From assembly GCA_008375315.1 (NCBI GenBank), contig CP032507.1, forward strand, positions 3,868,071-3,932,070: a stretch of 64,000 nt of DNA, given 5' to 3'. Numbering within the stretch: the stretch's first letter is position 1; each line of letters begins with the position of its first letter. Made by a program: the position numbers and the translations under genes. This document shows positions 18,109 to 64,000 of the stretch, piece by piece. The DNA is from Ectothiorhodospiraceae bacterium BW-2. GTDB lineage: Bacteria > Pseudomonadota > Gammaproteobacteria > Thiohalomonadales > Thiohalomonadaceae. The notes under the pieces are model-generated. The model ran no database searches. It saw nothing but the letters and a program-made list of their open reading frames with translations, and was not told the origin of the DNA.

Positions 18109-18825
18109 ATGTCAAATCTCGTTAAAATACTCCTGCTCGCAAGCTGCTACCTCACGACAGCAACGGCAACGGATATCAAATTTAGCTGTACCTCGGCAGG
18201 GTGTGAGCCCTTTTTTGACGCCTCAATCGCGTGGGCTACGGCGCATGGTCACACCTTAGTGCCGTATCAGTCCGGACGACTAGCCGATAACCTACTCGGA
18301 CTCTACCGTCAGGTGTTAAGTACCCGAAGTGATGAGTTCGACATTATGCTGATAGATACCGTCTGGCCGGGAGCATTAGAGAGCCATCTCATTGATTTTA
18401 AAAAAATTATCCCCCAATCCCAACTCGATAGCCACTTCAAACCCATTATCGATAACTTAACCACAGCAGACGGCCGTCTCATCGCCATGCCGCTCTTCAC
18501 CGACGCCGGAGTGCTCTACTACCGCAAAGATCTGCTGCAAAAATATGGCTTTGCCCCCCCAAAGACTTGGGGGGAGCTAAAAGATATCGCCCTAGCGATT
18601 ATGGCTAAAGAGAATAATCCCGATCTAATGGGGTATGTGTGGCAAGGCAAAGGGTATGAGGGGTTAACCTGTAATGCGCTAGAGTGGATCGACTCCCATC
18701 ATGGCGGCACCTTCATCGATGCTAGCGGTAACATTACCGTTAACAATCGCGCCACTGAGACAGCACTAGCGATGGCACGAGACTGGATCGGCACCCTCAC
18801 GCCGGTGGAGGTGCTCAACAGCTGA
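18109..18825 (+). pseudogene. Truncated extracellular sugar-binding protein (SBP_bac_1), C-terminal half lost
   Basis: The 238 codons encode a signal peptide (ILLLASCYLTTATA) and the N-terminal half of a family 1 (maltose/trehalose-type) binding protein: FDIMLIDTVWPG, MPLFTDAGVLYYRKDLL, PPKTWGELKDIALAI, GYVWQGKGYEGLTCN and ALEWIDSHHGG. Full-length members have about 400-430 residues and continue past the TPxGVLN-type segment; here the frame stops right after TPVEVLNS. The bases beyond belong to a different gene (a HAMP-GGDEF protein) in another reading frame. This looks like a deletion that joined the two genes out of frame. A secreted half-domain could be made but should not bind sugar. The AAGGA ribosome-binding site is intact. 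Confidence 0.75.
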
Positions 18826-20283
18826 TACAGCAGCAGACACTCACCAAAATCGAGACTCAAAAGATGCAGATAGCGCAGCAACTTGTCGAGGCTAAAGAGC
18901 AGCTAGAGCAGCGGCTACAGCAGCGGTTAGCGATTATGGTTGAGACGGTCAAGGCCCCCCTACTTAACCATATTAGCGCCATCAATCTACCCGACAGCCC
19001 GATAGCAAAGCAGCAGTTTGTCGGGCAGTTTAGAGACTGTATTGAGAACTATAAGGCCCTCCTCCTACAACACCACTGCCTTAAAGCCGTCTCGCACCAA
19101 TTTGCTACCGATTCGGTCGCACTTATTAACCGAGTGATGATTAAAACGGTTATTGAACTGCTGCTATCGAGTGACGAGTTAGTCGCGGTAGAGATACACG
19201 ACTGGAATAAGGCACTATTTGAAAGCTTTACGATAACTCCAGAGGGTACGCTACAGCCACTACAGCACCCCTTTATCCCCCCCGATGAGACTCAAGAGTT
19301 GAGTCGCGAAATCATTGATGGAGAGTATCTAGGTAGCGTCCACCTCTTCTATCAGACCAAAACACTAAAAGAGATAGAGCGCCAAGGCGAGCAGAGCATT
19401 GCCGATTTTATTGACCAAAGTGAGCGACTCTTTGCTGAAACTCGACAACGGATGCTCCGCTCTCGTCTGCTTGAGGTGGTGATCTTCTTTATCGTCACCG
19501 TTGCGGCGATGTTTACCATTAGCCTGCTAACGATAGTTCGCCCCTTTAAAGCGGCTCACCGACCATGCCGCCAAGTTAGCTAAAGGGGAGTTTGTACTGA
19601 CCACGGTGTCGGCCAAAGGGAACGATGAAATTGCTCTGCTAGCTCGTACATTTAACACCATGAGCAGCAATTTACAGCTCTCCTACGAGGCATTAAAGGC
19701 GACCAATAACTATTTAGAAGAGAAGGTACGCGAGCGCACTGAAGAGCTAGAGCAGAAGAACCGCCAACTACAGCAGCTATCGATCACAGATCGTCTCACA
19801 CAGTGCTATAACCGCGTTAAAATGGAGGAGCTACTAGCGCAGCAGCTCCATCTAGCCCAGCGCTACCAGACCCCCTTTTCACTCTTTATCGCCGATGCCG
19901 ATCACTTTAAACAGGTCAACGACCACCATGGCCATCAGATGGGAGACAAAGTACTCATCGAGCTAGCTAACCGCCTAAAAGAGGCCATCAGAGAGAGTGA
20001 CGCTATCGACCGTTGGAGGGGAGAGGAATTTCTCATTTTATGCCCTAACACCGCAGCAGAAGCGGCACAACAACTAGCACAACGGCTCTGTCAAACGGTT
20101 GCAGCAACGGCGTTTAGCTGTTTTAACCGGCGGATGACAGTAAGTATCGGCGTCTCAGCTCACCAAAGCAGTGATAACTCCATCGATTCACTCCTTGAAC
20201 GAGCAGATATAGCCCTCTACAGCGCGAAGGCAGAGGGGCGAAATCGGGCCGTTCTCTATCGGCCAAAAGCGGCAGCGAGTTAA
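18822..20283 (+). pseudogene. Diguanylate cyclase (periplasmic sensor-TM-HAMP-GGDEF), 5'-truncated and frameshifted
   Basis: In the frame starting at 18822 the sequence reads as a periplasmic coiled-coil sensor (TKIETQKMQIAQQLVEAKEQ onward; first Met at 18864), then a membrane segment (LEVVIFFIVTVAAMFTISLL) and the start of a HAMP domain, then a stop at 19582. The HAMP domain continues one frame over (LTDHAAKLAKGEF, GNDEIALLARTFNTM), followed by a coiled coil and a GGDEF domain ending at 20283. Dropping one C from the C4 run at 19541-19544 would restore one frame. The GGDEF active-site motif reads RWRGEEF (GGEEF expected; the first Gly is Arg), and the I-site is not evident. The first membrane helix is missing, apparently lost in the fusion with the upstream binding-protein gene. 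The downstream part could initiate at the GTG or ATG near 19606-19660 but would lack the sensor. Confidence 0.75.
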
Positions 20284-21358: not shown

Positions 21359-21373
21359 ACGGCGACGCTCTCA

Positions 21374-21396
21374 TCTCCCTTGCCTCACGAGGGAGA
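21374..21396 (+). other. Hairpin downstream of pstS without a T tract
   Basis: A perfect 7-bp stem (TCTCCCT / AGGGAGA) with a 9-nt loop starts 16 bp after the pstS stop. It lacks a following T run, so it may protect the mRNA 3' end rather than act as an intrinsic terminator. Confidence 0.4.
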
Positions 21397-21485
21397 GCTA
21401 GAGACCGGCGGTATAGTTCACCACTTTAGACTAGCCGCCGACTCTTTTATCTCCTCCCCTCCCCCTCCCCTACGCAAACCCAAAA

Positions 21486-21499
21486 GTGATCTATATCAA
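21486..21499 (+). promoter_or_regulatory. FNR/CRP-family binding site
   Basis: GTGATCTATATCAA matches the FNR/Anr consensus TTGAT-N4-ATCAA at 9 of 10 defined positions; it also partly matches CRP. Its centre lies about 70 bp upstream of the predicted start of transcription of the 92-residue gene, a usual class I activation distance. Confidence 0.6.
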
Positions 21500-21526
21500 G
21501 ATAAGCTGAGTTAATAAAAAAGCGGC

Positions 21527-21555
21527 TTGATTAAGCGTCTCCCAACCTATATAAG
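21527..21555 (+). promoter_or_regulatory. sigma70 promoter of the 92-residue gene
   Basis: TTGATT (-35, 21527-21532) and TATAAG (-10, 21550-21555) are separated by 17 bp. The matches are 4/6 and 5/6 to consensus. The gene starts 66 bp downstream of the -10. Confidence 0.6.
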
Positions 21556-21587
21556 TATATTATTATTTTCTTATACATATAAGTATA
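21549..21587 (+). promoter_or_regulatory. Direct repeat ATATAAGTATA, possible operator
   Basis: The 11-mer ATATAAGTATA occurs at 21549-21559 and again at 21577-21587, 28 bp apart. The second copy overlaps a perfect inverted repeat TTATAC-N6-GTATAA (21571-21588). The first overlaps the -10, so a bound protein would affect transcription start. The regulator is unknown. Confidence 0.45.
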
Positions 21588-21621
21588 AGATTAACTTTCA
21601 ATTAGTTAGGAGATATTTTTT

Positions 21622-21900
21622 ATGAATACTATGCCCGCAATTGTCTTAGCTGCCCTAATGAGCGATGCTAACCTAGCAGAGGTTGATGTGGCTGTGATTA
21701 GCTGCCCTAGTCTGGAGCAGGCCGCTTGCGCCCTACCGGATGGCAAGGTTTACTCCTATCAACGCTGGACCGAAACCATGGCTCGCTCTCCGGTAGAGGT
21801 GCTGCATGTCAGCCATAACCAAGGCGGCCTAGATCAGATTTGGTATATTAAACGCCCTGCGCTAACTGCGGCGGTCACACTAGATCAGACAGAGGAGTAG
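21622..21900 (+). CDS. Small protein of unknown function, 92 residues
   Basis: I do not recognise this protein. It begins MNTMPAIVLAALMSDANLAE, has a Cys-containing middle (VISCPSLEQAACALPDG), an aromatic patch (YSYQRWTETM) and a C-terminal half with HVSHNQGGLDQIWYIKRP. The hydrophobic N-terminus is too short and acidic for a clear signal peptide. The predicted fold is mixed alpha/beta. It has a good ribosome-binding site (TTAGGAGA, 10 bp before the ATG), its own promoter, an FNR/CRP-type site and AT-rich repeats upstream, so it is a real, regulated gene. No adjacent gene shares its transcript: pstS ends 263 bp upstream and the next gene is on the other strand. Oxygen- or redox-dependent expression is inferred only from the FNR-like site. 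Confidence 0.75.
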   Translation: MNTMPAIVLAALMSDANLAEVDVAVISCPSLEQAACALPDGKVYSYQRWTETMARSPVEVLHVSHNQGGLDQIWYIKRPALTAAVTLDQTEE

Positions 21901-21945
21901 ATCGTAACCGCCGGACAGTCAGTGCGGCACGCTGTTCGATTAGGG

Positions 21946-22074
21946 GATCTTGTTCATCGTTCCGTCACCCTTGCAGTTTCTATTATGCCCCTCTTTTTAA
22001 ACGACCCTTTTTTCCGGTAATCCACGGCTCATGAGGCATGATTCCCTCGCCCTCTCTCTGAGATGAACAAGGCC
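21946..22074. repeat. MITE-like element with terminal inverted repeats (copy 2)
   Basis: A 129-bp element begins CTTGTTCATCGTTCCGTCA and ends GATGAACAAGGCC in inverted orientation. It shares with copy 1 (3793-3940) the end sequence and an internal CTCATGAGG palindrome next to an ATTCCC-type stretch. It has no coding capacity. It sits in the 263-bp gap between the 92-residue gene and the convergent NorD/CbbO-like gene. Confidence 0.6.
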
Positions 22075-22163
22075 GATTAGGGTAACGATGCGCACAATCT
22101 TAGCTGATCGGCAAAAGGGGGCAGTACCCGCTATTGACGGGCGATAGCGGATAAACTCTCTGC

Positions 22164-24287
22164 CTAAGCGAGAGTTAAGCGCCGATAGATATCAGAGATC
22201 TTATACGGTAGCTGCTCGACACGACTCACCACCGTATAGGCGGCTGGCCCATAGAGGTGGGGCAGATAGTCCCGCGCATCTTGATCGATAGTAATGCAGT
22301 AGGGGTGAATACCGTTGCGCCGCGCCTCAATTAGCGCTCGGCGGGTATCTTCAATACCATACTCACCGCGATAGTCGTTATAGTCATCGGGTTTACCATC
22401 GGAGAGGGTAATTAAAAGGCGCGTTTTCGCTTCAACCTCAAGTAGCTGCTGCGTTAAATGGCGGATTGCAAAGCCCATACGGGTATAGTCCTGCGGGCGA
22501 ATGGCGCTAATTCGCCCCTCTATCTCACGGCTAAAGGGCTCCTCAAACCGTTTAATCGTATAGATTTCACACCGCAGGCGAGTCATACCGGAGAAGCCGT
22601 AGATAGCGTAGCGATCATTGAGGCTCTCTAACGCTTCACACAGCAGCAGCAGCGATTCGCGTTCGGCATCGTTAATCCACCCCTTAGTCGAACCGCTCAT
22701 ATCGACCATAAAGACCACCGCAATATTGCGATCTGCCCGGTGCATACGGGTAAAGAGCCGATCGCTCATCTCCTCCCCCCGCGCTCGATCAGCTAGCGCC
22801 TCGACTAAGGCCTCAAAATCGATACCATCGCCACTCTCCTGCTTGCGTAAAACTCTATCTTCATCACGCATTGCCTCAAAAGTTTTACGCAAATGTTTCA
22901 TTAATGGCGAGTATTTTTGCCGAGTTAAATAGATAAACTCATCGTCAACCGGAGTCACCTCCTTCTCCCGCACCGCGCACCAGTTTTTACGATAGTGCTG
23001 CCGACCGTGATCCCACTCATCGTAGAGAGAGGCCCCCTCCAGATGGTAGGTACCGTGCCAAACCGCGTCGCTATCGGCTTCGCTATCGGGAAAGAGCCAC
23101 TTCGGATCGTAATCCCCCGCCCCAGCCGGTTGAAGGTAGTCGGGAGGGAGTTCACCAAAATCTTGAACAATCGATCGCAGTAGCTGCCGCTGCCTCTGTG
23201 GCAGTTTAATCACGCTGCCATCGAAGGTAATCTCGATCTCAAAGCCATCAGGATGCTCCGACTGCTCCTCTATCTTCTGTTCGATCGCGGGTAGCTCAAT
23301 CGTCTCAGGACGCAGCTCCTTAACTAGCTCATCCATACCGACCTTAAACCGCGCCTTCTCCTTCGGCTGTCGCTCTAGCTGCACCCGTAGCACCGCATCG
23401 AGATGGAGCTGCGGCTGATAGCAGCAGGGGGCGAGGGGTTCGAGCCGGTGTAGCTGCTGTTCGACTAACGAGATGACCGACTCGACCTCTCGCGCCTGTA
23501 GTAGCTGCTGGCGTAACTGCCGCCACTCGGCACTGAGTTGACTAACATCGTCACTTAGGCTCTGCATGGAGCGGTAGAGCCCCGGTAGCTCTCTAGCGAT
23601 GTAACCCTCCAGACGCCAGCGATCTAGCGCCGCAAAGAGCTGTAGATAGCGCTCAGGGTAGCCAGAGGCCTCGGCATAGCGCTGCAATGGATAGCGAAAA
23701 GTCCCAAAACGGGCCTGCGCCCACTGATAGACCATGAGCGCTTTATAGAGCAGAAAGTTCTCCTCTGGGGTATCGCGCTCGGCCACCATCGCCGGCAGAT
23801 AGATCACCTCGGTATCGGTATAGCTAAACGGCTCCTCTGAGCGTTTAATATCGAGTTCCCGTCCAGAGAGACCGTGTAGAACATGGCGCAGCACCCGCTC
23901 GTGCCGATCGAGCGGGGCACCGAAACTGCGCTCTCGTTGACTTTGAAAAAAGATCTCAATATCGCGAATTTGCGCCATCGCCGGATGGAGACCCGACACA
24001 TCATAGGTATCCATCACATGCAGCGCCCACGACTCAATGAGCTCGCGATCGATACCCCTCCCCTCGCCCTCAGTGTGGGTTAGGGCGTTCAGAATCAGCT
24101 CATACCCTATCTGAATGTGGGTTGAGGTGATCCGCCCTAGCCAGTTGAGAATAAACTCCTGCTCACTACGATTCAGCTTAACAATACGATCTGCCAACAC
24201 CTGGCTATGGAGGAAGGTAAACTCGACCTCCAGCAGCTCATCAAGGTGGCTAACCAGCGCTTGGTAACCTAACGGCGACTTTTGCAT
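22164..24287 (-). CDS. NorD/CbbO-like VWA-domain protein
   Basis: A 707-residue protein. The C-terminal ~190 residues are a von Willebrand A domain with an intact MIDAS: VVFMVDMSGSTKG, the Thr of DYTRMGFAIRHL and the Asp of LITLSDGKPDDYNDYRGEYG. The DGKPxDYxxYxGxYGxxDTRxA pattern is typical of NorD and CbbO. The N-terminal 500 residues are helical with charged regions. NorD and CbbO work with MoxR-type AAA+ ATPases (NorQ/CbbQ) to activate nitric oxide reductase or Rubisco. No such ATPase is in the window, so the target cannot be decided; Rubisco would suit an autotroph. It begins 3 bp after guaB and is probably cotranscribed with it. Confidence 0.8.
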   Translation of the reverse strand: MQKSPLGYQALVSHLDELLEVEFTFLHSQVLADRIVKLNRSEQEFILNWLGRITSTHIQIGYELILNALTHTEGEGRGIDRELIESWALHVMDTYDVSGLHPAMAQIRDIEIFFQSQRERSFGAPLDRHERVLRHVLHGLSGRELDIKRSEEPFSYTDTEVIYLPAMVAERDTPEENFLLYKALMVYQWAQARFGTFRYPLQRYAEASGYPERYLQLFAALDRWRLEGYIARELPGLYRSMQSLSDDVSQLSAEWRQLRQQLLQAREVESVISLVEQQLHRLEPLAPCCYQPQLHLDAVLRVQLERQPKEKARFKVGMDELVKELRPETIELPAIEQKIEEQSEHPDGFEIEITFDGSVIKLPQRQRQLLRSIVQDFGELPPDYLQPAGAGDYDPKWLFPDSEADSDAVWHGTYHLEGASLYDEWDHGRQHYRKNWCAVREKEVTPVDDEFIYLTRQKYSPLMKHLRKTFEAMRDEDRVLRKQESGDGIDFEALVEALADRARGEEMSDRLFTRMHRADRNIAVVFMVDMSGSTKGWINDAERESLLLLCEALESLNDRYAIYGFSGMTRLRCEIYTIKRFEEPFSREIEGRISAIRPQDYTRMGFAIRHLTQQLLEVEAKTRLLITLSDGKPDDYNDYRGEYGIEDTRRALIEARRNGIHPYCITIDQDARDYLPHLYGPAAYTVVSRVEQLPYKISDIYRRLTLA

Positions 24288-52230: not shown

Positions 52231-54141
52231 ATGAGCCAAACTGACAATAACAGACTATCGTCCGTTCCCTCGACCGAGGGTGAGAGTGAGAGTGCTCTGC
52301 CTACCGAGATCGAATCGACCCCACTGCCCGACACAGCACCGGCCATCACCGCTCTACAAGAGGGACTAAGCCGCCACGATAAGGTGCTCTCGACCCTACA
52401 GCAACAGCTAGAGAACCAGATAACAGAGCGCGACTTTACCCCCTATATTAAGAGAGTCGAGCAGCTAGCGGCCCAAATTACCGCCCTCTCAGAGCTCTCC
52501 CCCCAACAGCTAGCGCCGCTACAGCAGCAGCTACAGCAGTTTGAAGCAGCGCTACAGCAGCAACAGCAGCAGACTCAGAGCGCCCTTAAAGCACGACAGC
52601 AAGATAGTGAACAGCAGCAGCAGGCCACCGAACAGAAGCTACAGCAGCAGCAGCAGGCGCTAGCGGCGTGTCAGCAGCAGCTACAGCAGATACAAGATCA
52701 TCTGCAACAGCTAGAGAGCCAGCAGCAGCAGCTCGACCACCACCAAAAGCGGCTAGAGAGCGGCGAACAGCAACGCACGGCACAACAGCAGCAGCTCCAG
52801 ACGCTACAGCAGCAGCTACAGCAGCTAACAGAGCAGCAGCAGCAGAACGATAACTCGCTAGCGCAGCTACAGCAGCAGCAACTAGAGTCGCTGCAACAGC
52901 TCATCTCGCCACTACAGCAGCAGCAGCAACAGCAGCAGCAGCAGTTAACGCTGCATGAAAACCGGCTCACCACCCTCAAACAGCAGCAGCAGCTACAGAG
53001 TGATGGGCTAGCAGACCAAATTCAGCAGCTATTAGATGAGAGCCAACAGCTACAACTGAACCAACAGAGTCAACGACAGCAGCTTGACGCCATCAATCGC
53101 CGTCTCGAACAGCAGCAGCAGCAGCTACAGCACCAGCATGAAGCGCTACTAGCGCATGAACAGCAAGAGGCGGTTACCCTAGCCCGTATCGATCAAAGTT
53201 TTACCCATCTAAATCAGAGTGTTACCGAGTTAGAGGGCTATCTAGGCGAGCTCACCGAGCAGCAGCAACAGCAGCACCACTCCCTAGAGCGCCTCGACCA
53301 GCAGCAGCTACGGCTGCAAAAAGCGTTGACTAGCTCCGATAACCGTGCCGATATCCGTCTCCACTACCAACAGAACAGTCTCGAAAAATTAGAACAGCGA
53401 CAGCAGCACTCCAGCCTAGAGCAACACAGCTTTGAGAGAAAGACTCGCCACTGGCAAAAGAGCGCCGTGCTAAGCACACTCCTTATCGTAGTGGCGATTG
53501 TGATCGGGCTCGTTATCACCCACCAGCAGCAGCAGCGGGCACTACAGCAGGTAGATGAGCAGTATCAGCAGCAGATGGCGCTCTTAACCGCACTACAGCG
53601 CTCGGGGGAGCTATCGCGAGAGAACTTTAACGCTATCATCCGCCTACGCCAGCAGTTAACCGAGCAACAGGAGCCGACCGCCGATCCCCATATCAAACAG
53701 CAGCTAGCTCAGATAATCGCTAACATTGAGGCGCTACGGCTGAGTGATTACACGCTGCAAGAGCGCAACCAGAGGCTAACCGATGCCCTGTTAGGACTTG
53801 ATCGCAAGCTGGTACGGGCACTGCCGCCACAAGCGCTGTACGATGAGTTATGGCTACAGCAGCAGCCTAGCAGCGGCTTCATGATTCAACTCCTTGCCGG
53901 TCAAGATCGCCAAAAAGTGGCGCAACAAGCGCAGACCATTAGCCGTATCAAGCCGTTGGCAATCTACCACCGCCCCGCCAAAGAGAGCGGTGCGAGTGGT
54001 TGGTATATCCTACTAGGGGGGCTCTACGATAGCTTCGCTCGCGCCGAGAGCGCGATTCTCGACCTACCCGCTGAGCTACAGCGCAACCAGCCTCTGGTGC
54101 GCTCTAACCGTTCGGTGTTAGCGGAGATGAATGGAGAGTAG
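52231..54141 (+). CDS. Glutamine-rich coiled-coil membrane protein with SPOR-like C-terminus
   Basis: A 636-residue protein of unusual composition. Residues about 85-400 are a long coiled coil made almost only of Gln and Leu with some Ser/Glu/Lys (LQQQLQQLTEQQQQND and similar), encoded by CAG/CTA runs. A single membrane segment follows at about 411-430 (VLSTLLIVVAIVIGLVIT), then a second coiled coil and, at about 549-625, a SPOR-like peptidoglycan-binding fold (FMIQLLAGQDRQKVAQQAQT; GWYILLGGLYDSFARAESAI). Topology by the positive-inside rule puts the coiled coil in the cytoplasm and the SPOR-like domain in the periplasm, as in DamX-like proteins. No known protein is recognised over the full length. 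It overlaps the convergent giant gene by 38 bp. Confidence 0.75.
   Translation: MSQTDNNRLSSVPSTEGESESALPTEIESTPLPDTAPAITALQEGLSRHDKVLSTLQQQLENQITERDFTPYIKRVEQLAAQITALSELSPQQLAPLQQQLQQFEAALQQQQQQTQSALKARQQDSEQQQQATEQKLQQQQQALAACQQQLQQIQDHLQQLESQQQQLDHHQKRLESGEQQRTAQQQQLQTLQQQLQQLTEQQQQNDNSLAQLQQQQLESLQQLISPLQQQQQQQQQQLTLHENRLTTLKQQQQLQSDGLADQIQQLLDESQQLQLNQQSQRQQLDAINRRLEQQQQQLQHQHEALLAHEQQEAVTLARIDQSFTHLNQSVTELEGYLGELTEQQQQQHHSLERLDQQQLRLQKALTSSDNRADIRLHYQQNSLEKLEQRQQHSSLEQHSFERKTRHWQKSAVLSTLLIVVAIVIGLVITHQQQQRALQQVDEQYQQQMALLTALQRSGELSRENFNAIIRLRQQLTEQQEPTADPHIKQQLAQIIANIEALRLSDYTLQERNQRLTDALLGLDRKLVRALPPQALYDELWLQQQPSSGFMIQLLAGQDRQKVAQQAQTISRIKPLAIYHRPAKESGASGWYILLGGLYDSFARAESAILDLPAELQRNQPLVRSNRSVLAEMNGE
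52500..53170 (+). repeat. CAG-rich low-complexity coding repeat
   Basis: Continuous interrupted runs of CAG and CTACAG codons encode poly-Gln with Leu every third to fourth residue. The longest pure stretch of CAG/CAA is at 52917-52942. This DNA can slip or recombine. Confidence 0.8.
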
Positions 54142-57100
54142 CGGTTTGGGGCGAGGAGATCGCCTCAGGAGCCCCCCCCCACCCCGAATCGACCCCCCCC
54201 TCACTCTCGACCGGCGGTGTAAGTAGTAACGAATCGGCGCTAGCGAAGTCAGAGAGTGCCCCGTTGTAGCCGTCACTCGCAATGCCGCCACTAGAGAGCC
54301 TCTCTAACATTAGCTGACAGAGCGCCTCATCGGTTGTTATCGTCCCATCGGAGAGCAGCCGCTCCCCCAGTGCGAGCTCAAACAGCTCCTGCTCGCCAAC
54401 GATCGGCTCCGGTGCGGGCCGCTCGGCCTGAATCTTCGCCATCGCCTCCAAAAACTGCTGTTCAAAGTCGCTATCTGAGAGTTCAAACGCCCTATTTTGC
54501 TCGGCCTGTTGCAGCGTTTGCTGCTGTGCCTGACGCATTTGCGTCACAAATTCGTCCGCTTCGGTCGCCGATAGTGGGCAGGTGCGGTAGGCAAAAGCGG
54601 CATCGGCGGCGGTAGTGGTCGAGCCATCGGCTAGCTGCACGACGCTCTGACCATGGACAGTCACCCCCTCGACAGGATGCGCTAACTCGCCATCGCTCAC
54701 CAAGCCAATACGCGCTATCCCCCATTCGGCCAGCGATTTCACCTCCCCGGTTTCACTCACACCGTTGCTGTTACTATCTTGCCAAATGGCAAACTCACCC
54801 CACTGGCTATCCTGACTATCGAGCCAGCTATCTTGATTAGTATCAAAGGCGAGTTGCAGTGCCTCCATGTCGGTTTTGGTATCAGGGGCGTGGTCGGTGA
54901 AGACGAACTCTGAGCGATCGGTGATGGTTCTGTCAGCACCGATATCTAATACCAGCAGGCCATCTTCTGTGCCGACCCAAGCTGTGATCTCTTTGATACT
55001 ATCGCCGTTATAGTCAAAACTACTCTCTGACTCACTCAGGCCAATGTAGTTAAATCCGTTGTTGTTGAGATCAATAACAACAGGAGCCGCACCATCATAA
55101 TAAAACTCATACACAACGGCCGCACCAGGGTTACCTGCTTCGTCAACCTGACGAATATAAAAAGTGTTATCCCCGACACTAGCTGTGTAAGAGGAACTCC
55201 AATTAGCATTATCAGAGCTGTATTCTATAGTTGCTCCAGTCTCAGTTGCAGAGACTAAAACATTTCCACCTGAAACATCGATTGGAGATGTGAATCGAGC
55301 TACCAAATAATCACCATTATTATTACCAACCAATACAACATCACCATTATTATCAATAATAATTCCGGTCTTTTCTGTTCCAACTTCAGCGACATCAATT
55401 TTTCCTGTTCCGTCGCTAGAAAATGTAGTATCAATACTACCATCGCTATTCAAGCGAACAACATCAACCCCCGAAGTATTTCCTGTAAATACTATTTTAC
55501 CACTACTATCAATTGCGATACCCCCTCCCCTATTCAAAACAGAGTTATTCATATAGACAGAAGCAATGCCATTTGTGCCAAAACTAGTATCAAGCACACC
55601 ACTACTATCGAATTTTGCCACCCCCATATAAGATGAACCAGTAGACGACAAAAGATAAATATTGCCACTACTGTCTATAACTGAATCCTGATTATCATCC
55701 GTCCCACCACCATCCATATCGATATTAACAATACCATCCCCTCCTCCAAAGGTAGTATCAATTGAGCCATCAGCATTTAATCTAACAATATAGCTCTCTT
55801 GACTACCAGTTAAACCAAGTCCTGTATAAGTCCGGCCAATAACTATAATCTTATCATCACTTTGAATAGAAACATCAGAACTAAAATCGACATAACCAAC
55901 GCCAGGACCATAAAGCTCACTTCCGACATCAATCACAGTCACACCTGAAGTTCCAAATGTCGTATCTAGTGTTCCATTTGTATTATACCTAGCAATAGCC
56001 ATATTCTCATTTCGCGTACCACCATTCGTATCAACATCATCAGCATAAGCAATCATAATTATTTTACCATCGGATTGTATTCCAACGGCTTGAGCACTCT
56101 CGTTGTCATACGCTGTACCAAATTTATTCAAAACCACTCCATCTGTGTCAAAAGTCAGATCCAAAACACCTGAAGATGTTATTTTAGCTATTGATGCATC
56201 ATAAAGATCAGCCCCTCCCCCATTCTGATTCGAAGGTAAATAGATATTATTAGCACTATCAATAGCCGCATCACCTCTCACGTAGTTTGTACCAAAGTCA
56301 ACAACTATTTTTCCGGTGCCACCACCAAATGATGTATCAAGATTTCCTGACTGATCGAGTTTTATAGCTGACATACTGACATCCCAGGAACCATCATAAA
56401 ATGAATTTCCACCTGATATAATATATCCACCTCCGGAGAGTGAAAATATAGATGCTTGAACTCCCTCTCCTGTTTTTGTCGTTGTATCTATTTCGACTAC
56501 ACCATTAGAACCAAAAGTAGTATCAAGTTGATAACTTATATCTACCACCGCAGGTGAAGTAGTATCAATCACCCATGCTGTAGTATTACTGCCAGCAGTA
56601 GAGATATTTCCAGAGCTATCAGTCTGTCTTACCTGTATCACTCCGATACCATAACTACCTTCACTTAACACAAAGGCAGAACCAGAACCACCAGACCAAG
56701 TTGAACCACTATCAGTGCTGTATTCCCAGGTCGCTCCGGCTTCAATTCCGGAAACATTGACGGTACCATCACGACTAATCCCATCACTACTACTGCTACC
56801 CAGATCATTGGCCAGAGCCAGTGTTGGCGTAACTGCCGAGTTATCAACAGTTACCACAAAAGCCTCCGTCATTGGAGCGATATACCCTTCTGCATTTGTT
56901 GCTTGGGCTCTAAAATTATAGGTAGTACCATCGCTTAAACCTGAAGTGGTATAACTCCAAGTTGTTCCTGTAACAACCGCATTGCCTAAAAATGTATAAT
57001 TATCGTAAATAGATACCGTGGAACCGGCATCCACTGTTCCGGCAAGTTGCAATGTTGTATCATCACTCGTATCTCCGGATGTTAAGGCACCTGTTATTGT

Positions 57101-60100
57101 ACCCGCATCATCGGTTATGGTATCCAGTGTAATCGCCGGAAGATCATTCGTTCCTACCACAGTAAAAACAGCATTAGCAGAAGCAGTCAAACTACCATCA
57201 GTTACCTGAATAGTAAAACTATCGGTCACCTCTTGCCCGTTCGTTAACGCTTGTGTATCTGGATCACTATCATCCAGAAGATAACTAACCGTATCGGTTG
57301 CAAGCGTTAAAGTTGCGGTACCATAAATACCCGGTTTGACATAAGTTAGCCCGCCATCAGCGCTGCTCCAACCATTACCCGTTAACCATGTGGTATCGTA
57401 ACTAACGCTATCTCCTACATCTTCATCACTTTTGGTGAGTAGCACAGATGAGCTGTTAACCGCCTGAAAATTGGCATAGTTATCGTCAAAAGCAGTACCG
57501 TAGTTACCCCCCCATCCCTCAGCATCATCACCCTGTAATTCGATATAGATATAACGGAGATCTGCCCCATAATTAGCAAATTGTCGGTCAATATTTAGCC
57601 AGCTACTTGTAGTAGTGAGTAAGGTAGAATCATAACTATCGAGCACAGCACGGGAACTATTTTTTAATTCAATTATAACGCGGTAAGTGTCGCCACTATT
57701 ATGATAGTCCTTCACCCAGGTACCGATGTCAATACTCGATTGACTATCCAAAAATCCGCTCGAGTACCCAGCAGCAAGCAGGTCTATCTCTTGACTTAAT
57801 GTTCCAAGTTGATAAGAGGAGTTAAAGCTATAGGCTCCGGTATTAGAGTTTCCCCAGCGGCTTATCCAAGGGTCACCGCCTGTAACAGCTATCCAACCGC
57901 TTAAATCTCCTGTCTCCCCACCCGGGTTAGTAAGGAGAATTGATTCACCAGCTTCTACTAAGTAATTGGTAGGAACACTAGCTGTTAGCGTTGGGACATC
58001 ATTGACATTGGTTACCGTTATATTAAACGACTGCTGAACCGGAGTAGTAATACCATCGCTCACCTGTAGCGTCACGGCATGATCGCCCACTTCGTTATTG
58101 GTCGGCGTGCCGGTTAAAGCGCCGGTACCGGCATCAAAACTTAACCATGCCGGCAGGGTCGGGGCGCTGTAGCTGAGCGTATCACCCGTATCAATATCAG
58201 TCGCAGCCAAGGTGTAGCTATAGGCACTATCTTCACTCACTACCACCGCATCGGTGCCGTTCCAACCGACTATCGGCACTGAAGTTATCGTTGGGGCGTC
58301 GTTGACATCACTCACCACAATTGCAGCACTCGCCTCTTGCGCTGAAAAAGCGGTAGTCCCTCCATTAGTAGTTACATCAGCGGTTCCTCCCGCCACACCA
58401 CTGGTTTGATCCCAGCCTCTGAAGGTAAAGGCTGCCGTCTCGCCACTCACTCCATCGGGCTGATAACGCAGTTGGGCAGCCGAGTCGAGCAGCCGTGCCG
58501 AGGAGGCGGTCACAGCACCGACCGCGCTCCAGTTCGTACCATCAATGCTGTATTCCCAACTACCGTTACCTGTTGTCGCAGTGATCGCCATCCCTGACGC
58601 ACCAACATCGGGATCGCTATAGCCCATATCGGTTAATATCGTGGCGACGGTAACAATCGAGGAGGGGGTATCTTCATCTGTCGTAGCAAAACTGTAGCCG
58701 TTGTTACCGGGCCAAGAGTAGGTCAAATTATCCACTACCCCTAAACGACTACCACTATTAGAGAACCATGGATAGAGCGTATCACCTTCATTAATATTGA
58801 GATTAGTTAATGTATTTGTTACGACATCTGCCGCCAAAGTGGTCACCGCGCCGCTACTGTCACTATTCCGTATTTCAAAGGAGACATTGTAGTTATTTGA
58901 TTCAATTGGGGTAATTTGATAAATGAGTTTATACCAATTGCCTAGTATTAGCGCATCCCCCCCCCCCGTAGTCCAACTGAGCGAGGTTGACACCGTATCG
59001 TTATGATAATACCCCCCCCCACCATGAAACCCCATGCCTAAATTAAAACCATCTGGCCGACCAAAAGATGAGGCTGAATTAGCACTATTGACGGCAAAAC
59101 CCATTCCACCATAGCCAGAGTTTCCAGAGATATAGGTATCCATTGAGAGGGTATAGGTCGTCCCACTCACCAAGGTTACCCCTGTATTTGAAGTCCAGAC
59201 TTCAGAAGTACTGCCAGGAATCGAAATCCCCCCCGTGCCACTCACGCCTGCGGTACTACTCCAAGCCATATTGCCGGTGGTCGCGCCATTATTATTGAAG
59301 TTGTCGGTGAACTCAGCCTCTGTGTCAAAGCTATTAGCCACTGTCCCCCCTAGCCCCGTCAGCGCCGGTGCATCATTCACAGCCAACACCGTCGAAGCTA
59401 GCGTAACCCCCGCCGCTGAAACTTGGGATGTCGCATCATCAGTGGTGATATTAAAGAGCTGTCGAGTCGCCCCACTGGTGAAGGTCACTGCCGCCGAACT
59501 ATCCACCGCATGAACCGTTAACCCCCCTGGTGAGCCGTTGTAATTGGCATTCGGTAAAAAGCGCAGCAGGGTACTGCCATCAAGCAACAACGCACTACTA
59601 CCACTCACCGCGCTGCTACTCACCCCATACCAGTTAGCGCCACTATCGGTACTGTATTGCCAGAGCCCTTCGGTAGCGTCATTAGCGGCATCGGCGCTAA
59701 TGGCAATACCGGCTAGGGTGTCGCCCTCAATATCGCTCATTAGACTACTAAATAGAGTAGCCACGCTGCTACCAGCAGGGGTCGCATCTTCATTCATCTC
59801 TATTACGCTCGGCGCACCGCTCCAAGTCGGGGCATCATTGAGCGCTGTTACGCCCATTGCATAGTGATAGCTACCCGATGAGTAGGCGCTACTCCCTCCC
59901 GTCGGCGTCGCTATCGTCGCAACGGTATGCGCTGTGCCGGCACTGCCATCCCAACCATAGAGGGTCATACTGCTACCGCTAGCGTTATTCGCTCCGGGCA
60001 TAAAGCGGAGCCAGTCACTGCTATTGAGCAGATAGAGATCGCTGTCATTGACCAAACTAGCTAGCGCTAGCCAACTCCCATCACTCCCATTGGTTGAGTC

Positions 60101-63100
60101 GGTAGAGTATTGCCATTCACCCACTCCCGCACTGTCTTGGGTGTAGCTCGCAGCTAACCCGACACTGTCCCCATCAGGGTCGCTCAAGCCAAACTGGGTG
60201 ACAAGAGCGCTAACCTGCACCCCCGTTGAGGCGTTATCTTCCGTCGTGGTACCACTTACCGTGGTGATACCATTCATTGACCAAGTTGCGCCATTCATAA
60301 GAGTCTGTGTCCGGCCAGCAGGCGTCGAATCAGCAGCGCTAGTGCCGCTCCCCTCGGTAAAGCCCCAGTGGGCAGCTAGATTCGTTTCATTGCCGGTTAA
60401 AGATTGTGACATTAGGGCACTCATGTCGCTCTCCGTCAGTAGCTGGCTCCATATCGACACCTCATCCATTTGACCGTTAAAAAACTCATCTTGGCTACTA
60501 CCTATCAGTTTTTTGCCGCCCAATACCACGCTATCTAAATCATCGACAATACGCCCCCCTAGGGTGCCACTGCCGGCATGAACGCCGTTAATATAGAAGT
60601 TAACACTACTCCCTTGCATGGTATAGGCGACATGGCTCCAGCTATTTGCCGCCACAGAGGCGGTGGATGAGACACTCGTCCAGCCCAACGCTTGGGCATC
60701 AATCCCCACCTCTAAGGCACCACTACTATTGAGTCGGAATCCTAAATAGTCGGTTGAGCTATCAGTATTGGTCACACTCCCTCCAAAGGAGAGGATAGTG
60801 TAGGTGCCACTAATTAGTGCAGGATTGACCCATGCGGCGACCGTGTAGGCTGAGCCACTATCGATTTGGGCATAGGGGGAGGAGCCGCTAATGGCATAGT
60901 CATCGACACCATCGAGTTGCAGCGTATTGCCAGTGCCGGAGCTGAGTGGGGCGTCATTCACATTCGCCACGGCTGCGGTGGCAGCAGAGCTCACCGCTTC
61001 TGCTGTACCGTAGCTATCGATATAAGTTGCCGTGACCCGAATCAAGTTACCCACTTCAGCTTGAGTGAGAGTATAGCTGTTACCCGTTGCCAACACACTC
61101 CAAGAACCTCCCCCATTACTACTCATCTCCCAGTGATAGGTTCTGGCCGTTAAACCATCCTCGTCAGTAAGTGTGTCGGTAAAAGTTAGCGTCTCATCTT
61201 CGCTAGGAGCGCTATTACTAAGAGTGATAGCTCCCGTCGGTAGATCGTTAACATTGGTGACGGCGGTGGTTGCGCTTGAGGTTAGGCTCTCAAGACTACC
61301 TTGGCCATCAATGTAACTGACGGTGACGCTAATCGCTGCTCCAACTTCAGCTTGAGTCAATGTATAAGTTGACGCTGTTGCGCCAGTAATGACAGAGCCT
61401 CCAGCTAACCACTGGTAGCTGAATACACCTAAACCATCTTCATCGGCAAGAGCGCTGGTATCGGCGGTTAGCGTTTGATCTTCGGTGGCTGTGCCGGTAA
61501 TGGCCACGGTGCCGGTGGGTAGATCATTCACATTCGCCACGGCTGCGGTAGCAAGCGAAGTGAGAGTTTCGGTGCTACCTTGGCCATCAATGTAACTGAC
61601 GGTGACGCTAATCGCTGCGCCAACTTCAGCTTGAGTCAATGTGTAAGTTGAGGCTGTTGCACCAGTAATGGCAGTGCCTCCAGCTAACCACTGGTAGCTG
61701 AATACACCTAAACCATCTTCATCGGCAAGAGCGCTGGTATCAGCGATTAGCATTTGACCTTCGGTGGTTGTGCCGGTGATGGCCACGGTGCCGGTGGGTA
61801 GATCATTCACATTCGCCACGGCTGCGGTAGCAAGCGAAGTGAGAGTTTCGGTGCTACCTTGGCCATCAATGTAACTGACGGTGACGCTAATCGCTGCGCC
61901 AACTTCAGCTTGAGTCAATGTGTAAGTTGAGGCTGTTGCGCCAGTAATGGCAGTGCCTCCGGCTAACCACTGGTAACTGAATACACCTAAACCATCTTCA
62001 TCGGCAAGAGCGCTGGTATCAACAGTTAGCGTTTGATCTTCGGTGGCTGTGCCGGTGATGGCCACGGTGCCGGTGGGTAGATCATTCACATTCGCCACGG
62101 CTGCGGTAGCAAGCGAAGTGAGAGTTTCGGTGCTACCTTGGCCATCAATGTAACTGACGGTGACGCTAATCGCTGCGCCAACTTCAGCTTGAGTCAATGT
62201 GTAAGTCGAGGCTGTTGCGCCAGTAATGGCAGTGCCTCCGGCTAACCACTGGTAGCTGAACTCGCCTAAACCATCTTCATCGGCAAGAGCGCTGGTATCA
62301 ACAGTTAGCGTTTGATCTTCGGTGGCTGTGCCGGTGATGGCCACGGTGCCGGTGGGTAGATCATTCACATTCGCCACGGCTGCGGTAGCAAGCGAAGTGA
62401 GAGTTTCGGTGCTACCTTGGCCATCAATGTAACTGACGGTGACGCTAATCGCTGCGCCAACTTCAGCTTGAGTCAATGTGTAAGTTGAGGCTGTTGCACC
62501 AGTAATGGCAGTGCCTCCAGCTAACCACTGGTAGCTGAATACACCTAAACCATCTTCATCGGCAAGAGCGCTGGTATCAGCGATTAGCATTTGACCTTCG
62601 GTGGCTGTGCCGGTGATGGCCACGGTGCCGGTGGGTAGATCATTCACATTCGCCACGGCTGCGGTAGCAAGCGAAGTGAGAGTTTCGGTGCTACCTTGGC
62701 CATCAATGTAACTGACGGTGACGCTAATCGCTGCGCCAACTTCAGCTTGAGTCAATGTGTAAGTTGAGGCTGTTGCGCCAGTAATGGCAGTGCCTCCGGC
62801 TAACCACTGGTAGCTGAACTCGCCTAAACCATCTTCATCGGCAAGAGCGCTGGCATCGGCGGTTAGCGTTTGACCTTCGGTGGCGGTGCCGGTGATGGCC
62901 ACGGTGCCGGTGGGTAGGTCATTCACATTCGCCACGGCTGCGGTAGCAAGCGAAGTGAGAGTTTCGGTGCTACCTTGGCCATCAATGTAACTGACGGTGA
63001 CTCTAATCGCTGCTCCGACTTCGTTTTGGGTCAGTGTGTAAGTTGACGCTGTTGCGCCAGTAATGACAGAGCCTCCGGCTAACCACTGGTAGCTGAATAC

Positions 63101-64000
63101 ACCTAAACCATCTTCATCGGCAAGAGCGCTGGTATCAACAGTTAGCGTTTGATCTTCGGTGGCTGTGCCGGTGATGGCCACGGTGCCGGTGGGTAGATCA
63201 TTCACATTCGCCACGGCTGCGGTAGCAAGCGAAGTGAGAGTTTCGGTGCTACCTTGGCCATCAATGTAACTGACGGTGACGCTAATCGCTGCGCCAACTT
63301 CAGCTTGAGTCAATGTGTAAGTTGAGGCTGTTGCGCCAGTAATGGCAGTGCCTCCGGCTAACCACTGGTAACTGAATACACCTAAACCATCTTCATCGGC
63401 AAGAGCGCTGGTATCAACAGTTAGCGTTTGATCTTCGGTGGCTGTGCCGGTGATGGCCACGGTGCCGGTGGGTAGATCATTCACATTCGCCACGGCTGCG
63501 GTAGCAAGCGAAGTGAGAGTTTCGGTGCTACCTTGGCCATCAATGTAACTGACGGTGACGCTAATCGCTGCGCCAACTTCAGCTTGAGTCAATGTGTAAG
63601 TCGAGGCTGTTGCGCCAGTAATGGCAGTGCCTCCGGCTAACCACTGGTAGCTGAACTCGCCTAAACCATCTTCATCGGCAAGAGCGCTGGTATCAACAGT
63701 TAGCGTTTGATCTTCGGTGGCTGTGCCGGTGATGGCCACGGTGCCGGTGGGTAGATCATTCACATTCGCCACGGCTGCGGTAGCAAGCGAAGTGAGAGTT
63801 TCGGTGCTACCTTGGCCATCAATGTAACTGACGGTGACGCTAATCGCTGCTCCAACTTCAGCTTGAGTCAATGTGTAAGTCGAGGCTGTTGCGCCAGTAA
63901 TGGCAGTGCCTCCGGCTAACCACTGGTAACTGAATACACCTAAACCATCTTCATCGGCAAGAGCGCTGGTATCAACAGTTAGCGTTTGATCTTCGGTGGC
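54104..64000 (-). CDS. Giant multi-domain surface/secreted protein, N-terminus beyond right edge
   Basis: About 3,298 codons lie in the window; the frame is open to 64000, so the start is outside. From the N-terminal side: ten or more tandem 93-residue Ig/cadherin-like repeats (DLPTGTVAITGT... FSYQWLAGG ... VSYIDGQGSTETLTS), an IgL-like unit, a LamG domain (LQLDGVDDYAISG; SWSHVAYTMQGSSVNFYING), several Ig-like modules with EDxxSxxV starts, a He_PIG-type cadherin domain (LPAWLSFDAGTGALTGTP), VCBS-like units, eight or so delta-60 repeats (LDTTFGSNGVV; DLTFDTDGVV) and a C-terminal calcium-binding module (VIDLNNNGFNYI, DTNQDSWLDSQD, WQDSNSNGVSETGEV). The C-terminal ~170 residues are helical and acidic. 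No LPxTG or classic GGxGxD nonapeptide array is seen. Such proteins are typically type I-secreted adhesins. No secretion genes are in the window. Confidence 0.9.
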   Translation of the reverse strand, partial: ATEDQTLTVDTSALADEDGLGVFSYQWLAGGTAITGATASTYTLTQAEVGAAISVTVSYIDGQGSTETLTSLATAAVANVNDLPTGTVAITGTATEDQTLTVDTSALADEDGLGEFSYQWLAGGTAITGATASTYTLTQAEVGAAISVTVSYIDGQGSTETLTSLATAAVANVNDLPTGTVAITGTATEDQTLTVDTSALADEDGLGVFSYQWLAGGTAITGATASTYTLTQAEVGAAISVTVSYIDGQGSTETLTSLATAAVANVNDLPTGTVAITGTATEDQTLTVDTSALADEDGLGVFSYQWLAGGSVITGATASTYTLTQNEVGAAIRVTVSYIDGQGSTETLTSLATAAVANVNDLPTGTVAITGTATEGQTLTADASALADEDGLGEFSYQWLAGGTAITGATASTYTLTQAEVGAAISVTVSYIDGQGSTETLTSLATAAVANVNDLPTGTVAITGTATEGQMLIADTSALADEDGLGVFSYQWLAGGTAITGATASTYTLTQAEVGAAISVTVSYIDGQGSTETLTSLATAAVANVNDLPTGTVAITGTATEDQTLTVDTSALADEDGLGEFSYQWLAGGTAITGATASTYTLTQAEVGAAISVTVSYIDGQGSTETLTSLATAAVANVNDLPTGTVAITGTATEDQTLTVDTSALADEDGLGVFSYQWLAGGTAITGATASTYTLTQAEVGAAISVTVSYIDGQGSTETLTSLATAAVANVNDLPTGTVAITGTTTEGQMLIADTSALADEDGLGVFSYQWLAGGTAITGATASTYTLTQAEVGAAISVTVSYIDGQGSTETLTSLATAAVANVNDLPTGTVAITGTATEDQTLTADTSALADEDGLGVFSYQWLAGGSVITGATASTYTLTQAEVGAAISVTVSYIDGQGSLESLTSSATTAVTNVNDLPTGAITLSNSAPSEDETLTFTDTLTDEDGLTARTYHWEMSSNGGGSWSVLATGNSYTLTQAEVGNLIRVTATYIDSYGTAEAVSSAATAAVANVNDAPLSSGTGNTLQLDGVDDYAISGSSPYAQIDSGSAYTVAAWVNPALISGTYTILSFGGSVTNTDSSTDYLGFRLNSSGALEVGIDAQALGWTSVSSTASVAANSWSHVAYTMQGSSVNFYINGVHAGSGTLGGRIVDDLDSVVLGGKKLIGSSQDEFFNGQMDEVSIWSQLLTESDMSALMSQSLTGNETNLAAHWGFTEGSGTSAADSTPAGRTQTLMNGATWSMNGITTVSGTTTEDNASTGVQVSALVTQFGLSDPDGDSVGLAASYTQDSAGVGEWQYSTDSTNGSDGSWLALASLVNDSDLYLLNSSDWLRFMPGANNASGSSMTLYGWDGSAGTAHTVATIATPTGGSSAYSSGSYHYAMGVTALNDAPTWSGAPSVIEMNEDATPAGSSVATLFSSLMSDIEGDTLAGIAISADAANDATEGLWQYSTDSGANWYGVSSSAVSGSSALLLDGSTLLRFLPNANYNGSPGGLTVHAVDSSAAVTFTSGATRQLFNITTDDATSQVSAAGVTLASTVLAVNDAPALTGLGGTVANSFDTEAEFTDNFNNNGATTGNMAWSSTAGVSGTGGISIPGSTSEVWTSNTGVTLVSGTTYTLSMDTYISGNSGYGGMGFAVNSANSASSFGRPDGFNLGMGFHGGGGYYHNDTVSTSLSWTTGGGDALILGNWYKLIYQITPIESNNYNVSFEIRNSDSSGAVTTLAADVVTNTLTNLNINEGDTLYPWFSNSGSRLGVVDNLTYSWPGNNGYSFATTDEDTPSSIVTVATILTDMGYSDPDVGASGMAITATTGNGSWEYSIDGTNWSAVGAVTASSARLLDSAAQLRYQPDGVSGETAAFTFRGWDQTSGVAGGTADVTTNGGTTAFSAQEASAAIVVSDVNDAPTITSVPIVGWNGTDAVVVSEDSAYSYTLAATDIDTGDTLSYSAPTLPAWLSFDAGTGALTGTPTNNEVGDHAVTLQVSDGITTPVQQSFNITVTNVNDVPTLTASVPTNYLVEAGESILLTNPGGETGDLSGWIAVTGGDPWISRWGNSNTGAYSFNSSYQLGTLSQEIDLLAAGYSSGFLDSQSSIDIGTWVKDYHNSGDTYRVIIELKNSSRAVLDSYDSTLLTTTSSWLNIDRQFANYGADLRYIYIELQGDDAEGWGGNYGTAFDDNYANFQAVNSSSVLLTKSDEDVGDSVSYDTTWLTGNGWSSADGGLTYVKPGIYGTATLTLATDTVSYLLDDSDPDTQALTNGQEVTDSFTIQVTDGSLTASANAVFTVVGTNDLPAITLDTITDDAGTITGALTSGDTSDDTTLQLAGTVDAGSTVSIYDNYTFLGNAVVTGTTWSYTTSGLSDGTTYNFRAQATNAEGYIAPMTEAFVVTVDNSAVTPTLALANDLGSSSSDGISRDGTVNVSGIEAGATWEYSTDSGSTWSGGSGSAFVLSEGSYGIGVIQVRQTDSSGNISTAGSNTTAWVIDTTSPAVVDISYQLDTTFGSNGVVEIDTTTKTGEGVQASIFSLSGGGYIISGGNSFYDGSWDVSMSAIKLDQSGNLDTSFGGGTGKIVVDFGTNYVRGDAAIDSANNIYLPSNQNGGGADLYDASIAKITSSGVLDLTFDTDGVVLNKFGTAYDNESAQAVGIQSDGKIIMIAYADDVDTNGGTRNENMAIARYNTNGTLDTTFGTSGVTVIDVGSELYGPGVGYVDFSSDVSIQSDDKIIVIGRTYTGLGLTGSQESYIVRLNADGSIDTTFGGGDGIVNIDMDGGGTDDNQDSVIDSSGNIYLLSSTGSSYMGVAKFDSSGVLDTSFGTNGIASVYMNNSVLNRGGGIAIDSSGKIVFTGNTSGVDVVRLNSDGSIDTTFSSDGTGKIDVAEVGTEKTGIIIDNNGDVVLVGNNNGDYLVARFTSPIDVSGGNVLVSATETGATIEYSSDNANWSSSYTASVGDNTFYIRQVDEAGNPGAAVVYEFYYDGAAPVVIDLNNNGFNYIGLSESESSFDYNGDSIKEITAWVGTEDGLLVLDIGADRTITDRSEFVFTDHAPDTKTDMEALQLAFDTNQDSWLDSQDSQWGEFAIWQDSNSNGVSETGEVKSLAEWGIARIGLVSDGELAHPVEGVTVHGQSVVQLADGSTTTAADAAFAYRTCPLSATEADEFVTQMRQAQQQTLQQAEQNRAFELSDSDFEQQFLEAMAKIQAERPAPEPIVGEQELFELALGERLLSDGTITTDEALCQLMLERLSSGGIASDGYNGALSDFASADSLLLTPPVESEGGVDSGWGGAPEAISSPQTATLHSSPLTPNG
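58957..59020 (-). repeat. Two long poly-G tracts in coding sequence
   Basis: On the plus strand C10 at 58957-58966 and C9 at 59012-59020 lie 45 bp apart; on the coding strand they are G10 and G9. Two more, G9 (54172-54180) and G8 (54193-54200), lie near the 3' end of the same gene. Confidence 0.85.
61222..64000 (-). repeat. Tandem 279-bp repeats in the giant gene
   Basis: Anchor sequence TGGCCACGGT recurs at 61501, 61780, 62059, 62338, 62617, 62896, 63175, 63454 and 63733, exactly 279 bp (93 codons) apart. Units are nearly identical in DNA; differences fall in a few positions (VFSYQW/EFSYQW, TAITG/SVITG, QTLTVD/QMLIAD) that recur in mixed order. The 61222-61500 unit is diverged. The array continues beyond the right edge. 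Confidence 0.95.

Follow-up and report, generated by a model that had tools for sequence, protein, structure and literature searches.

We report that the DNA upstream of a 92-codon frame, here ORF92, carries an FNR/DNR-type site with 14 letters (TGATCTATATCAAG) in common with two others, one ahead of norC and one in the space separating a multihaem cytochrome gene from that of a CRP/FNR-family regulator, and that the frame itself has the coding character of the genes in the window (i.e., the whole stretch of 64,000 nucleotides analysed). Our tentative reading, with a probability of roughly 0.42, is that ORF92 is genuine and that a DNR-type regulator acts at 21486-21499, the product being made together with nitric oxide reductase. 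Specifically, ORF92 would be a lineage-restricted small gene under its own promoter, and a DNR-type, NO-responsive CRP/FNR regulator, for which there are two candidate genes, one near the nor genes and one near the cytochrome gene, would bind 21486-21499 and aid RNA polymerase at about 21527-21555 from upstream, in a class I-like position. ORF92 would then be expressed alongside the multihaem cytochrome and nitric oxide reductase during nitrogen oxide respiration, and its product may be a small alpha/beta protein, probably located in the cytoplasm, that most likely serves as an accessory or regulatory partner and not as an enzyme. The features of the locus are as follows.

21368-21403 and 21406-21440, plus strand: two stable hairpins 3' of pstS (fold analysis)
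21486-21499, plus strand: FNR/DNR-type site GTGATCTATATCAA, 9/10 to TTGATNNNNATCAA
21527-21555, plus strand: candidate sigma70 promoter TTGATT-17-TATAAG, 9/12, absent from the strict scan
21549-21559 and 21577-21587, plus strand: copies of the direct repeat ATATAAGTATA (repeat search)
21569-21590, strand-neutral: palindrome TCTTATAC-N6-GTATAAGA with 8-bp perfect arms
21608-21612, plus strand: AGGAG, Shine-Dalgarno-like, with the ATG 9 nt further on
21622-21900, plus strand: ORF92, 92-aa orphan protein, codon score 0.25 per codon, homologue search negative

The FNR-type site and its matches elsewhere in the genome

The original prediction placed a 9/10 FNR-type site ahead of the frame, and GTGATCTATATCAA is present there. 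By itself a 9/10 site means little because 250 places genome-wide score at least 9/10; the reversed pattern gives 65, a control that is biased by other word preferences, and the ratio of 250 to 65 is not relied on. In the window the pattern occurs four times at this level, and 20 orderings of the half-site letters (the actual one included) give 0-7 places, i.e. the motif count is at chance level. The number of genomic places favours the alternative that ORF92 is a real orphan whose FNR-like site arose by chance, the gene having a constitutive or AT-rich promoter under another regulator, possibly acting through the ATATAAGTATA repeats or the palindrome. We regard this as a serious contender, at somewhat less than even odds.

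Forty-three loci, taken from among the matches listed and covering part of the 250 places, were classified; 27 lie within a called frame, whereas the ORF92 site is intergenic and upstream of a gene, which speaks against chance. Seven are copies of one repeat, and seven lie within 400 bp ahead of a gene, including ORF92 and the cytochrome/regulator site; for the other five of these a nitrogen-oxide link is not plain, which counts against DNR control. The norC locus is not among the seven since a frame was drawn across its site, which we take to be a false extension of norC. One intergenic 9/10 site (L145) precedes a gene that, by eye, is molybdate-binding-protein-like. Perfect FNR palindromes number 11 in the genome, and on our reading only three of them fall outside genes, i.e. 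at the cytochrome/regulator pair, at norC and directly after a stop codon, the last over 200 bp upstream of a gene for a secreted-like protein.

A 3255-aa frame at 54104-63871 of the window has a stretch similar to one in a large frame near 3942 kb, where it surrounds a perfect FNR palindrome within the coding sequence. Seven copies of ATGATAACGATCAA with near-identical flanks and a spacing of 268-648 bp (G000:C1:94893-97188, own genome; L154-L160) precede, by about 1 kb, a gene that looks ParA-like by eye.

A better argument for the site is its likeness to two others. The sequence TTGATCTATATCAA has exactly two places in the genome, upstream of norC and in the cytochrome/regulator intergenic region, and the ORF92 site is its sole one-mismatch match; with about 2.1 such matches expected, the single one found is not significant, which is in keeping with a chance site. 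The 13-mer TGATCTATATCAA occurs at three genomic places (upstream of ORF92, upstream of norC and between the cytochrome and regulator genes), and extended by its flanks it gives the 14 letters common to all three, which argues against chance. An order-3 chain trained on the window predicts 0.15 genomic occurrences of the 13-mer and 0.03 of the 14-mer, the latter having been chosen post hoc. The four spacer letters of the 14-mer have no known role in DNR binding.

The copy at norC starts 75 bp upstream of the gene; after norC come norB, an AAA ATPase gene and, further on, a VWA protein gene (the names norC, norB, norQ and norD were assigned by order and sequence). The second copy separates the multihaem cytochrome gene (Pfam Multi-haem_cyto) from the CRP/FNR-family regulator. 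The published DNR consensus CTTGATnnnnATCAAG (PMC1274295) is matched at 12 of 12 letters by the norC site, 11 of 12 by the cytochrome site and 10 of 12 by the ORF92 site. Among norC loci, a site with one mismatch or none lies within 350 bp in 7 of 15 (own included); for the relatives (12 from the family and two from the class, with five weak norC rows excluded) this is 6 of 14, so even this core target is not uniformly marked.

Like known DNR/FNR denitrification promoters (norCB, cytochrome genes), ORF92 has a near-palindromic upstream TTGATnnnnATCAA site. It differs from them in that its first half-site reads GTGAT where TTGAT is usual, its site is centred at about -69.5 and not at -41.5, and the target is an orphan protein.

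Site spacing, candidate regulators and the other upstream elements

The distance of -69.5 is relative to the proposed promoter and its putative start. No -10-like hexamer was found that would place the ORF92 site at -41.5 ± 4; a class II promoter was rejected since the nearest hexamers match at 4/6 and put the site at about -32.5 and -34.5. For Escherichia coli, PMC3688515 gives a site at -41.5 ± 4 for 19 of 23 directly activated promoters with known start, and at -60.5 for one of the 23. This spacing fits a site that occurs by chance. At the cytochrome gene, 5/6 -10-like hexamers put the 14-mer at -38.5 and -40.5, i.e. at the class II place, and a 4/6 hexamer of the adjacent regulator gene puts it at -41.5; for norC, our rule gave no -10-like hexamer in the tested range. 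The case for anaerobic or nitrogen-oxide control is no more than suggestive: it agrees with the 14 letters common to the norC and cytochrome/regulator promoters, but the spacing is not class II. We put the odds that a DNR/FNR-type protein controls ORF92 at roughly even.

Two CRP/FNR proteins (cNMP_binding and HTH_Crp_2 domains) are encoded at 309582-310262 and 322785-323471 of the own genome. Both have ETLSR in the putative recognition helix, and neither reaches the cut-off of any of the NCBIfam models listed for it. We infer that they could be DNRs that read the ORF92 site. Positions 9596-14259 of L162 form one run of genes, comprising that of a multihaem cytochrome, whose match to hydrazine dehydrogenase is sub-threshold, two small ones and one resembling flavocytochrome c sulfide dehydrogenase; the run lies opposite the CRP/FNR regulator, with the DNR-type site at class II distance in between. 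A transposase-like frame (by eye) is present in copies at G000:C1:300184, 303648 and 312092 (own genome; L162), two of which flank the cytochrome/regulator and molybdenum-cofactor-like genes.

A good sigma70 promoter with 17-bp spacing had also been predicted. A 9/12 pair with a 17-nt spacer is present (-35 TTGATT at 21527-21532, -10 TATAAG at 21550-21555), but "good" is generous: the -10 lacks its final T, and because of this the strict scan upstream of ORF92 returned no promoter. The predicted repeat pair is there as described, with one ATATAAGTATA copy, at 21549, covering the -10 and the other, at 21577, within the TTATAC-N6-GTATAA palindrome, the core of which (21571-21588) lies within the arms TCTTATAC and GTATAAGA. 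The palindrome at 21569-21590 is a candidate operator or 8-bp 5'-UTR hairpin. Its core has one place in the whole genome and no palindrome-based regulon could be built; the lack of a second copy also weighs against another regulator using it.

When the 163 bp upstream were dinucleotide-shuffled 1000 times, a 9/10 FNR site appeared in 8 of the shuffles and an 11-bp direct repeat (scored as an 11-mer repeated within 60 nt) in 6, compared with 53 for the promoter under a looser rule and 70 for the 8-bp palindrome. The FNR site and the direct repeat are locally unusual and the promoter and palindrome hardly so, in AT-rich DNA. Of the local features the direct repeat is the rarest, a point for regulation by another protein. 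With the promoter and the palindrome near chance, and the palindrome without a second copy, the argument that the degree of control implies a meaningful role is weak. Among 30 other upstream stretches of the window, chosen by us and some of them within operons, none had the FNR site, the promoter or the direct repeat and two had the palindrome. Folded as RNA, the ORF92 5' UTR (z -1.17) and 3' region (z 0.07) are unremarkable.

Coding character and relatives of ORF92

The codon score of ORF92, 0.25 per codon, falls within the range of the 31 training genes of the window (0.043-0.442, each scored with its own codons removed). Of 133 in-frame chunks from real genes (taken from the score-training genes, ORF92 being outside the training set), 71% scored at least as high; the corresponding share was 3% for the antisense frame and 0 of 133 for every one of four wrong frames. 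The GC contents of the three codon positions (0.64, 0.43, 0.53) match real genes. ORF92 is probably a real small gene, lineage-restricted and orphan. That the frame is spurious, the upstream elements being chance features of an AT-rich spacer, would fit the empty homologue searches and the strict scan without a promoter; given the gene-like codon score and codon-position GC, a score that exceeds every chunk of the four wrong frames, and the AGGAG 9 nt ahead of the ATG, we consider it very unlikely.

The homologue search suggested with the original prediction was run and, at E ≤ 0.001, gave no relative outside the own genome in sets of near, order, class and phylum genomes, which overlap. The own genome alone was matched among 56 near genomes (own included) at E ≤ 0.001, and at E ≤ 0.01 among 20 genomes of the order and 398 of the phylum (own included in each); in the near and order sets the own genome is the sole member of its genus. 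The 369 class genomes (own included) gave no match at E ≤ 0.001 outside the own genome. Weak rows (E 0.003-0.1, three of them below 0.01) came from 18 other genomes of this set, fewer than the ~37 expected by chance among 369 genomes at that limit. The frames were inspected for three genomes and the matches rejected: the L008 match runs antisense to an isochorismatase-like frame, and those at L005 and L007 are parts of a long membrane-protein-like frame (all named by eye). ORF92 had no match in contigs of close relatives, viral contigs, phages, plasmids, PHROGs, PDB sequences or PADLOC, and only sub-threshold matches in Pfam and NCBIfam. A real gene that could not be placed had been predicted, in agreement with the host-like codon use and with the lack of a homologue in the sets searched.

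An orphan in an isolated position, in a genome with repeated transposase-like frames (named by eye) elsewhere, might also derive from a phage or mobile element, as cargo or accessory gene left stranded in the spacer. We find this very unlikely, as the viral contigs, phages, plasmids, PHROGs and PADLOC were all without a match, codon use is host-typical and the repeats across 21359-22163 are 10-20 nt, unlike element borders.

Neighbourhood, predicted structure and implications

The segment 21350-21460, which includes both hairpins, folds with -35.8 kcal/mol (z -3.06; 2 of 200 shuffles were equally stable), and the terminator scan did not flag its hairpins. They may end transcription and probably separate ORF92 from pstS, and with two strong hairpins in between we treat ORF92 as its own unit. 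The proposed link to the phosphate genes finds no support: none of the 10 relatives whose pstS loci were read has an ORF92-like frame after pstS (five weak pstS rows left out; the L166 locus extends just some 257 bp past the gene), and their genomes have no ORF92 match anywhere. Among 120 loci, a search with ORF92 gave a true match in own-genome loci only (the weak rows reached E values no better than 0.001), and one with pstS at E ≤ 1e-5 likewise gave own loci only, the flanks being short. ORF92 is outside any conserved pst phosphate cluster. On the other side, 22164-24287 encodes a VWA protein; its relatives, counting paralogues, were present in 26 of the 38 other genomes searched, and no ORF92 lies alongside them in the loci examined. 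At 18109-20283 of the window one diguanylate cyclase gene is apparently split into three frames, a solute-binding-like sensor (matching just positions 48-199 of a 307-position profile), a middle piece and a HAMP plus GGDEF piece, which may reflect decay or an assembly error.

Single-sequence modelling of the whole protein gave a mean pLDDT of 56.5, with one of five models well above the others; a core model reached 69.6 with the same elements, i.e. a strand, a helix and two strands. The GTP cyclohydrolase I feedback regulatory protein (GFRP, PF06399) ranked first with both models, at Z 7.1; the top rows had Z 6.5-7.1 and aligned 54-60 residues at an rmsd of 1.7-2.4 Å and 16-18% identity, followed by a KCTD12 domain (Z 5.5 and 6.2), which ties with GFRP in the second comparison. 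The modelled likeness to GFRP is a lead only because a best Z of 7-8 is usual with this tool for models without a clear match, and because the family profile is unmatched: PF06399 gave no match to ORF92 at E ≤ 10 with the HMMER filters on, no match in the own genome at E ≤ 1 and none above cut-off in 56 genomes, a search that had no positive control since the 14 control genomes were also all below cut-off.

Membership of DUF7693 (PF24745) was rejected at 15.4 bits against a cut-off of 27, with 29 residues of ORF92 aligned (E 0.022). The viral structure library had no row for the ORF92 model at E ≤ 0.001; DUF4177, an idea prompted by the C-terminal YIKRP of ORF92, accounted for two non-significant rows there, and a DUF4177-like query (an approximate sequence) had no match in plasmids or phages. 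That ORF92 is a new, small NO- or anoxia-induced regulator, confined to one sulfur-bacterial lineage, with a GFRP-like beta-alpha-beta-beta fold, tuning an enzyme (e.g. a GTP-consuming one in cofactor synthesis) as denitrification starts, with the AT-rich palindrome as a second, gene-specific layer of control, is a long shot.

At present ORF92 is another small orphan gene with a suggestive promoter. Should the DNR-type site work, a lineage-restricted protein would be wired into a nitrogen-oxide regulon, and ORF92 would provide a test case for the contribution of orphan genes to denitrification in sulfur-oxidising bacteria.
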